Below, in pieces: positions 10,541 through 16,453 of a stretch of 64,000 nucleotides of DNA (position 1 is its first letter; every line of letters starts with the position of its first letter). The position numbers were made by a program, and so were the translations under genes. The notes beneath the pieces are model-generated. The model had not been told where the DNA came from and made no database searches. It worked only from the letters and a program-made list of their open reading frames with translations. Origin of the DNA: Natrinema caseinilyticum (GTDB lineage: Archaea > Halobacteriota > Halobacteria > Halobacteriales > Natrialbaceae); NCBI RefSeq assembly GCF_024227435.1, contig NZ_CP100445.1, positions 2,043,369 to 2,107,368 on the forward strand, in the 5' to 3' direction.

Positions 10541-10693
10541 TTACTCGTCGGCCGCGTCCGCCGGCGGTGCGGGCAGCCGACAGCCGCAGGGCCAGGCAAA
10601 CGGCCCGAGGTCTCTCGAGTCGAAGCGGAACGCGATGGCGATAGCGCGGCCGCAGCCGGGACAGGGACCGAGGAGTGACTCGTCGGCGGTCAT
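10541..10693 (-). CDS. 50-residue zinc-ribbon protein
   Basis: This short frame starts with ATG at 10693 and stops with TAA at 10541. It has two Cys pairs, CPGCG near residue 11 and PCGCR near residue 38, separated by AIAIAFRFDSRDLGPFAW. The spacing suits a single treble-clef or zinc-ribbon knuckle. Codon third positions are strongly G/C. The opposite frames look like shadow. Similar tiny Cys-rich proteins are common in haloarchaea and mostly uncharacterised; some affect biofilm and motility. Convergent with the sulfatase-like gene. Confidence 0.65.
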   Translation of the reverse strand: MTADESLLGPCPGCGRAIAIAFRFDSRDLGPFAWPCGCRLPAPPADAADE

Positions 10694-10843
10694 CGTCGGC
10701 GATAGTGCTGGTAGCCCCGAGGTCGGTGTGGTGACGGTGGGACGCGACCGTGGCGTGACGGCGGTTCGCGGCCGTGCAGTCGCTCGAGGGACGTGCCGCA
10801 GGCGAAGCTAATCGGGTACGAACGCTGTGCGTGGCGTGCGAGA

Positions 10844-10851
10844 CTTTTATG
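10844..10851 (+). promoter_or_regulatory. TATA-like box for a candidate non-coding RNA
   Basis: ACTTTTAT in otherwise G+C-rich sequence, 25-32 nt upstream of the first base of a strong hairpin at 10876. The spacing is that of a haloarchaeal promoter to its transcript start. Confidence 0.4.
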
Positions 10852-10872
10852 TCTCGGTAGACAGTATGGAAT

Positions 10873-10990
10873 CATGCTTGCAAACCGCGTGGGTTTGGAA
10901 GCGCACTCGGGTGTTAGAGCACCCGGGTCTTTCGTGCGGACCCCGTGGAGCTGTGCTTCCACTTCGTGAGACGACAGCACAATACTTATA
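10873..10990 (+). ncRNA. Candidate structured small RNA with three consecutive hairpins
   Basis: Three stems follow each other. First, GCTTGCAAACC (10876-10886) pairs with GGTTTGGAAGC (10892-10902), 11 positions with one mismatch. Second, ACTCGGGTG (10905-10913) pairs with CACCCGGGT (10920-10928), nine pairs including one G-U. Third, TGTGCT (10952-10957) pairs with AGCACA (10976-10981). A TATA-like box precedes the first stem at promoter distance, and an AT-rich segment follows the third. The only + frame is a 31-codon ORF without protein character. It does not fold as a tRNA, and I do not recognise it as a known RNA family. The 3' end is a guess. Confidence 0.4.
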
Positions 10991-12283: not shown

Positions 12284-12734
12284 GACTGCCGGACGCCCCC
12301 GAATCGGTCCGTCAAGCGGTACGAGTACTCGAGCCATCCCGGATAGTCGGCTGTCGAGGCCACTCTCAGTCAGTGCGACTCGAGTTCGACTCCGAGCGCC
12401 TCGAACTCGGCACCGGTAGCGGGGAGGACGGTTCGTCGCCGTGATCCGCCATCACGGCGCCCATCGACGTGATTTACCGATGTTCGACCAGTTCATCCCC
12501 GAAAATGTCTGGGCAGAAAGCTGGCCTCGGCACTCATAGGGCTCGTCACCACCGGGTGCCGAGTCCGGTTCGGAGCAGGTGCGTCGTCATCGGCCAGGCG
12601 AGACTACGCGGGTCGCTTCAATGACGGTTTGGGTTCCCGTCGAATCCCGGTCGGTACTCGAATCTCTCGACCCGCCGACCACAGGAATCCCTCGAGAGCG
12701 ACCACAATCTCAAAAACGCACTCGAGAAAACTCC
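12284..12734 (+). other. Intergenic stretch without a convincing gene
   Basis: About 450 bp downstream of the enoyl-CoA hydratase. Reading frames here are Arg-rich shadows with poor third-position bias. I see no hairpin or repeat of note. Confidence 0.5.
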
Positions 12735-15313: not shown

Positions 15314-16453
15314 TTATCCCTCGAGTCGCTCGCGCGCGGCCGCGACCACGAGCGGGAGCGTGATCGTCGCGTCTGCGTAGACGGAGACGTTCTCGGCGTT
15401 CTTCTCGAGTTTGCCCCACGAGCGGGCTTCGTCGAGGGTCGCGCCAGAGAGGCCGCCGGTCTGTTTGGGGTCCATCGTCAGCTGGACGGCGTAGTCGTAG
15501 GCGCCGGGGGTGACGAGCATCGTCTGGAGGGTGAAGTTCTTGGGTACGCCGCCGCCGACGACGAACGCGCCGGCCTCGTCGGCGTCGAACGCGATGTCGG
15601 TCAGCGGCGTCATGTCGGCCAGCGCGTCCAGCGAGAACGCGGAGGTCTGGGAGTACATCCACGCCTGGAGCCCGAGGACGGAGTCCTGGACGGCGGGACA
15701 GTAGATCGGCACGTCGTTCTCGTACGCGGCGGCGGCGATGCCGGGGTTCTCGTCGACGTCCTCGCGCACGTTGATTTCGGCGTTGGCCCGCCCGAGTTCT
15801 TCGGTGAGCCGCTGAATGGAGACCGCCCCCTCTTCCTCGCAGTCCGCCTCGAGGACCGGAAAGACCTCCTCGCGGAGGTGGGATTCGAAGGTCGCGAAGA
15901 ATTCCTGGGGAAGGTAGACGTTGTAGATGCGGTCGACGCCCTCGTCGCGCAGCGTCTCGTCGTGTTCGCGTTCGGTCTTGCCTTCCGCGTGGACCTCGCC
16001 GTGGTGGTGTTTGCCGCCGATTGCCTCGATGGCGTCGTGAGTGAGGTTCGCCCCGGTCGTAACGAGGACGTCGATGTAGCCGTCGCGGATCAGGTCGGCG
16101 ACGATCGCCCGCATTCCCGTCGGTACCATCGCACCCGCCAGGCTGAAGAAGACGGTCACGTCGTCGTCGAACATCGCCTCCGTCACGTCGACCGCCTCGT
16201 GGAGGGTCGCCGCACCGACCCCAGCGTTGCCGTACTCGTCCGCGAGGTCGCCGACCGTCATGCCCGCGCGGACCTCGGCGTGACCGATCGGGTCGTGCGA
16301 AAACGTGTGGCGCTCGGGCTCGTGGTGGTCTACTCCCCCGTCGTCGCCGTGATTTGGCTCCTCGCTCCCGTGATCGTGTTCCTCGCCGTCGGTACCGTGG
16401 TCCTCGCCGTCGGTATCGCGTTTCTCGCTCCCGCTATCGGAGTCGTCGCTCAT
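15314..16453 (-). CDS. Deoxyhypusine synthase
   Basis: A 379-aa enzyme that transfers the aminobutyl group of spermidine (or an agmatine route in archaea) to a Lys of translation factor aIF5A. Visible are SLAGAMVPTGMRAIVADLI, VLVTTGANLTHD, GAAVSIQRL-type helices, and VVGGGVPKNFTLQ with the catalytic Lys near the C-terminus, then DPKQTGGLSGATLDEARSWGK. The first 55 residues form an acidic, His-rich extension (EDHGTDGEEHDHGSEEPNHG), probably disordered and possibly metal-binding. The frame extends to 16558, but ATG at 16453 is the natural start. Confidence 0.95.
   Translation of the reverse strand: MSDDSDSGSEKRDTDGEDHGTDGEEHDHGSEEPNHGDDGGVDHHEPERHTFSHDPIGHAEVRAGMTVGDLADEYGNAGVGAATLHEAVDVTEAMFDDDVTVFFSLAGAMVPTGMRAIVADLIRDGYIDVLVTTGANLTHDAIEAIGGKHHHGEVHAEGKTEREHDETLRDEGVDRIYNVYLPQEFFATFESHLREEVFPVLEADCEEEGAVSIQRLTEELGRANAEINVREDVDENPGIAAAAYENDVPIYCPAVQDSVLGLQAWMYSQTSAFSLDALADMTPLTDIAFDADEAGAFVVGGGVPKNFTLQTMLVTPGAYDYAVQLTMDPKQTGGLSGATLDEARSWGKLEKNAENVSVYADATITLPLVVAAARERLEG

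Follow-up and report, generated by a model that had tools for sequence, protein, structure and literature searches.

The question raised by this locus is what a run of three stable hairpins, lying between positions 10844 and 10990 of a stretch of 64,000 nucleotides from the genome of Natrinema caseinilyticum (the window), might do. The window is haloarchaeal DNA, as indicated by the archaeal LSU rRNA end, the 5S gene and the tRNA-Cys gene at its right edge. The original prediction, made from the letters alone, was a new small RNA with a promoter of its own. The three consecutive stems are indeed present (10876-10902, 10905-10928 and around 10939-10965). They had been thought unlikely to occur by chance, but the excess is modest: the plus-strand fold has a computed energy of -53.2 kcal/mol compared to a mean of -44.1 for shuffled sequences (z -2.29), with three of the 200 shuffles equally stable, and the minus strand has a z of -1.97. 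Guide RNA, tRNA, RNase P RNA and SRP RNA were each considered and dropped, the last three in agreement with the prediction, as none has a match at the locus in Rfam or ARAGORN. Nothing in Rfam 15 reaches its gathering score there; the best match, ST7-AS1_2, is implausible (21.7 bits vs a gathering score of 50). Elsewhere in the window, the C/D-box guide RNA sR-tMet is located at 12523-12595 on the minus strand (RF02163, 70.9 bits).

The locus had also been described as lacking any protein signal, and this proved to be incorrect. Two open reading frames, ORF1 and ORF2, are on the minus strand and share an ATGA overlap. Read in this direction, the order is TATAAG, arm a, hairpins P2 and P3, arm a', a loop, arm a2 and the ATG at 10875 (Table 1). 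In 93 of 100 copies, arm a begins 27-28 nt from the center of the TATA box, the distance expected of an archaeal promoter, and TATAAG is read as the TATA box of the minus-strand promoter. Judged from its sequence, the hairpin element forms the 5' leader of a predicted minus-strand mRNA that has two cistrons and no annotation. What stands of the original prediction is a conserved structured RNA without an Rfam family; a stand-alone plus-strand RNA with its own promoter does not.

Table 1. Parts of the leader and the reading frames that follow it, in window coordinates.
Feature	Position	Strand	Remarks
TATA box TATAAG	10985..10990	minus	within conserved CAGTAR-n-TATAAGT block; kept in aligned copies
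Predicted transcript start	~10961	minus	leader runs to 10876
Arm a GGAAGCAC	10953..10960	minus	predicted transcript 5' end; pairs with a' to form P1; covariation and G-U vs A-C test
Hairpin P2, GGGTC/GACCC	10925..10943	minus	GAAA in loop; compensating variants by inspection
Hairpin P3, GGGTG-CTCTAA-CACCC	10909..10924	minus	most conserved core; loop variable
Arm a' GCGCTTCC	10897..10904	minus	can pair with a (P1) or a2 (P4); three-way covariation
P4 upper stem, Natrialbaceae	10892-10897 / 10881-10886	minus	
Arm a2 GCAAGC	10876..10881	minus	abuts ORF1 start codon on its upstream side; pairs with a' to form P4
ORF1, 61 aa, N-terminus MIPYCLPRHKSLAR	10690..10875	minus	family consensus MIxYILPGYKRPAR
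Hairpin P5, CGAGAC-AUAAAA-GUCUCG	10839..10856	minus	inside ORF1 codons
ORF2, 50 aa, CPGCG...WPCGC	10541..10693	minus	predicted zinc-binding mini-protein; ATGA overlap with ORF1

The element is not confined to this locus. By DNA search, this genome has six copies, and 22 of the 61 genomes covered gave a match. A covariance model built on the minus strand (R1) raised the number in this genome to seven; within the genus it matched 27 of 29 genomes, with as many as 28 copies in one of them, and it matched 80 of 125 Natrialbaceae. The carrying Natrialbaceae genomes have from 1 to 32 copies; the highest number comes from a member of genus g38, which is probably Halovivax. The exact core pattern is present in named records that include Natrinema, Halovivax, Halostagnicola, Natrialba, Halopiger, Natronorubrum and Natronobiforma, and Natrialbaceae plasmid records also carry copies, with no annotated feature beneath the match. 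An order-wide model (R2), built from 34 sequences of several families and including the ATG, detects divergent homologues at E <= 1e-4 in 154 of 392 sampled Halobacteriales genomes, representing 59 of 95 genera; the matches in distant families have modest E-values. With the same model, 21 of the 295 genomes in a sample of the phylum were matched; all are of the same order, with none outside it among the matches listed. A virus-borne element was considered and rejected: two viral pattern scans gave none or three matches, the two examined resemble unrelated coding sequence, and no phage record matched the element. One contig (G225, C3) has leader pairs at 16263/158579 and 23452/165763, and their nearly equal spacing of ~142.3 kb indicates a duplication, either of a genome segment or in the assembly.

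The genes that follow the leader display a clear pattern in the Natrialbaceae. Arm a2 is followed directly by a start codon, the ORF1 stop and the ORF2 start overlap (-1, -5, -8 or -11) in 70 of 83 copies, and a small ORF with a CxxC...CxC motif comes next on the same strand in 72 of the 83. ORF2 has the consensus CPxCGxPVxxVTVxGPxxxxAxPCGC, and many of these proteins are smaller than 70 aa, with some reaching ~110. ORF2 is under purifying selection, judging by a dN/dS of 0.33 when 14 chosen pairs of related copies are compared; ORF1 has a dN/dS of 0.61-0.69, that is, weak constraint as a protein. Synonymous changes are scarce in the first 15 codons of ORF1 (0.057, compared to 0.274 for ORF2), which is consistent with an RNA constraint there. 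From its cysteine motifs only, ORF2 is probably a zinc finger. A Pfam/NCBIfam search with ORF2 gave nothing above the cut-off, and its AlphaFold model is of low confidence (pLDDT 63), too poor for a structure search. The numbers of RNA copies and of ORF2-type proteins vary in step from genome to genome (7/7, 28/28, 26/28, 1/1 and 0/0), and a minority of the copies are without a recognisable ORF2.

Outside of the Natrialbaceae, other, unrelated Cys-rich genes follow the same RNA. At 17 further R2 loci, the model ends on an ATG in 15 cases and on a GTG in two, which is partly by construction because R2 includes the ATG. The first or second ORF is Cys-rich at about 12 of the 17, including SWIM-like proteins, and a related SWIM protein downstream of a leader passes the Pfam cut-off. 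Clustering the neighbours of 114 loci revealed no universal neighbour gene. One family of neighbour ORFs recurs, with 33 ORFs at 14 element loci (L155, L163 and 12 others), e.g., ...LRPSPEQAAQLDRLIQTRGFEQVQRWGERGELPEG.... At five loci in families f5 and f7 (L310-L313 and L319), the leader closely precedes a Cys-containing ORF, with a second gene after it. The longer locus of this second gene, L328, has RAMP-like genes (weak Csm3/Cmr3 matches), and such loci are tentatively reminiscent of the HRAMP loci of haloarchaea, a CRISPR-derived system without an array (PMC8730458).

The central observation concerns arm a', which is complementary to both a (P1) and a2 (P4). The three arms a/a'/a2 are GGAAGCCAC/GTGGCTTCC/GAAGCC in most Natrialbaceae, GGAAACCGC/GCGGTTTCC/GAAACC in L097 (those of L068 are similar), GAAAGCCG/CGGCTTTC/GAAAGCC and GAAGAACGG/CCGGTCTTC/GAAGACC in family f17 and GAACGCCAG/CTGGGGTTC/GAATCCC in family f4. 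These triplets were extracted by selecting for pairing, and so the argument for covariation is carried by the alignment counts. P1 together with P3 is 86.8% paired and has a covariation score of 0.188 (0.107 when shuffled, 0/500 shuffles); P4 together with P3 scores 0.110 (0.055 shuffled, 0/500 shuffles); and in the Natrialbaceae set of 80 rows, pairing reaches 93.9% and 142 cells are double changes (0/500 shuffles). Shuffling leaves the relatedness of the sequences in place. The covariation of P4 is weaker than that of P1, with fewer double changes, and in one slid control double-change cells are more numerous. Judged by these alignments, all three arms co-vary across families, which is the kind of compensatory change in relatives that the original prediction had called for. 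P2 has the compensating variants GGGTC/GACCC, GGGAC/GTCCC and GGGGC/GCCCC by inspection. P5, which occurs in the Natrialbaceae and in one f7 copy (L130), also co-varies (G-C 42 / A-U 37 and C-G 34 / U-G 27 / U-A 15). The loop of P3 (window 10914-10919) has a peculiarity of its own: among 116 distinct loop sequences, 24 also occur as their reverse complement in a different copy, against a null mean of 5.4 (0/2000). The corresponding counts are 2 for the reverse and 0 for the complement, and this closure suggests recurrent inversion of the hairpin loop.

The two helices are also close in energy. Constrained folding of 116 copies, a set that leaves out copies with poor pairing in either helix, gives a median P1 minus P4 difference of -1.1 kcal/mol (10-90% range, -6.1 to +2.8). 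P4 is computed to be more stable than P1 in the window copy (-45.5 vs -42.6, or 2.9 kcal/mol), and P1 is the usual computed minimum in the distant families. Both of these competing helices co-vary in the sequences and have close computed energies, and P4 abuts the start codon.

We consider it likely, from these sequence features, that the leader is a translational RNA switch placed before genes that mostly encode zinc fingers. Transcription would begin at arm a. In the proposed ON state, a pairs with a' and P1 would close a junction containing P2 and P3, leaving a2 and the ORF1 AUG free. In the proposed OFF state, a' would pair with a2 instead, and since the resulting helix ends at the AUG, it should block ribosome loading. 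Translation of ORF1 would be coupled to that of ORF2 via the ATGA overlap, and therefore the switch would set the output of the ORF2 mini-protein; such overlapping genes are translationally coupled in Haloferax volcanii (PMC6728339). P2 and P3, which are kept across families, are the likely sensor of one shared signal, be it a metal, a protein or something else. The presence of several unrelated Cys-rich proteins downstream suggests that the signal is metal- or zinc-related or is a shared protein. A broader version, in which one RNA core responding to a single signal (e.g., zinc, another metal or a shared protein) controls the translation of small zinc-binding proteins, as many as dozens in one genome, as an order-wide, riboswitch-like regulon of haloarchaea, is possible but speculative.

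The best surviving alternative is that the leader is static. P1-P3 would then be a protein-binding or stability element, perhaps one bound by the ORF2 product in an autoregulatory manner, and the pairing of a' with a2 would be incidental. The co-occurrence of the RNA with ORF2-type proteins and the usual preference for P1 in the distant families both fit this explanation. However, a2 co-varies with a' across families, and each of the unrelated Cys-rich proteins found elsewhere would have had to evolve binding to the same core. We regard a static leader as unlikely.

Much less probable is an element that acts in trans, either as a stable RNA processed from the leader or as a multi-copy, toxin-antitoxin-like unit composed of the leader, ORF1 and ORF2. 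The many copies per genome, their sporadic presence, the plasmid copies and the minority of copies without a recognisable ORF2 fit such an element, but the adjacency to the start codon and the stop/start overlap favor control in cis. Furthermore, there is no antisense or tandem-repeat antitoxin anatomy and the downstream genes vary between families.

Equally improbable is an RNA from the other strand, i.e., a plus-strand small RNA made from the promoter of the original prediction or an RNA antisense to the leader. The TTTTATG box is present at the spacing that had been noted, and the plus-strand fold is the one with the z of -2.29. Wobbles can assign a helix to its strand, since the complement of G-U reads as A-C, which does not pair. 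In minus-strand RNA, P1 has 46 G-U pairs vs 4 A-C and P5 has 31 vs 9, which places both helices on the minus strand. The P3 extension (10905-10908 with 10925-10928) is the opposite, with 131 A-C vs 3 G-U in minus-strand RNA; its 131 cells pair via G-U on the plus strand only. P2 uses some of these bases in minus-strand RNA, which does not fully account for the regularity of the A-C cells. However, the box at 10844-10851 is the complement of the ORF1 codons CAT AAA AGT in the loop of P5, that is, coding sequence rather than a promoter; it is missing from most copies read outside the Natrialbaceae and is varied in L020 and L095, and it is the TATA of the minus strand that is retained. On the wobble counts and the coding nature of the box, a plus-strand small RNA with its own promoter was rejected.

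CreTA loci consist of a CRISPR-repeat-like sequence that guides Cascade and a toxin RNA gene located upstream in the same direction. Like them, this is a small multi-part haloarchaeal RNA locus, and P4 of some copies resembles a repeat tail (a weak CRISPR-DR31 match, E 6.3), but an origin from CreTA or ectopic CRISPR repeats (PMC9458426, PMC8501985) was rejected because the likeness is limited to some copies, the P4 sequence is not kept across families and the locus is one mRNA with ORFs.

The proposed switch resembles translational riboswitches in being a 5' leader, upstream of specific genes in a predicted transcript, that has a conserved core and alternative helices, with one of them next to the start codon. 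It differs in having no known ligand, no Shine-Dalgarno masking and no Rfam match and in its up to 32 copies per genome. The Halobacteria S15 leader (PMC7247131) is likewise a structured haloarchaeal leader upstream of genes that it possibly controls. Unlike the ribosomal-protein leaders described there, the present element, compared by gene context rather than by fold, precedes small Cys-rich genes, has many copies and matches no Rfam family. ORF2 is similar to the C(P)XCG zinc-finger mini-proteins of Haloferax in its very small size and paired cysteine motifs; about 49 of 400 H. volcanii mini-proteins have two C(P)XCG motifs (PMC11241148). It does not belong with proteins having two such motifs in less than 70 aa, however, since the first motif, CPxCG, is kept and the second is PCGC, and no Pfam or NCBIfam family recognises it.

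We found no earlier description of the leader element or of ORF1 in the open-licence papers searched, and one may exist elsewhere. Few archaeal cis-regulatory RNAs are known (PMC7247131), leaders are absent from 72% of the coding transcripts of H. volcanii and control of translation by a structured leader has been judged untypical for haloarchaea (PMC4983044), and at 5' UTRs haloarchaeal ribosomes do not depend on pairing with a Shine-Dalgarno sequence (PMC3986360). The leader element points to many unannotated small genes. If the proposed switch is real, it would represent a large layer of RNA-based control in the 59 of 95 sampled Halobacteriales genera, with up to 32 copies in a genome, and it would provide a defined system for learning how haloarchaeal ribosomes load onto, or stay off, a leadered mRNA.
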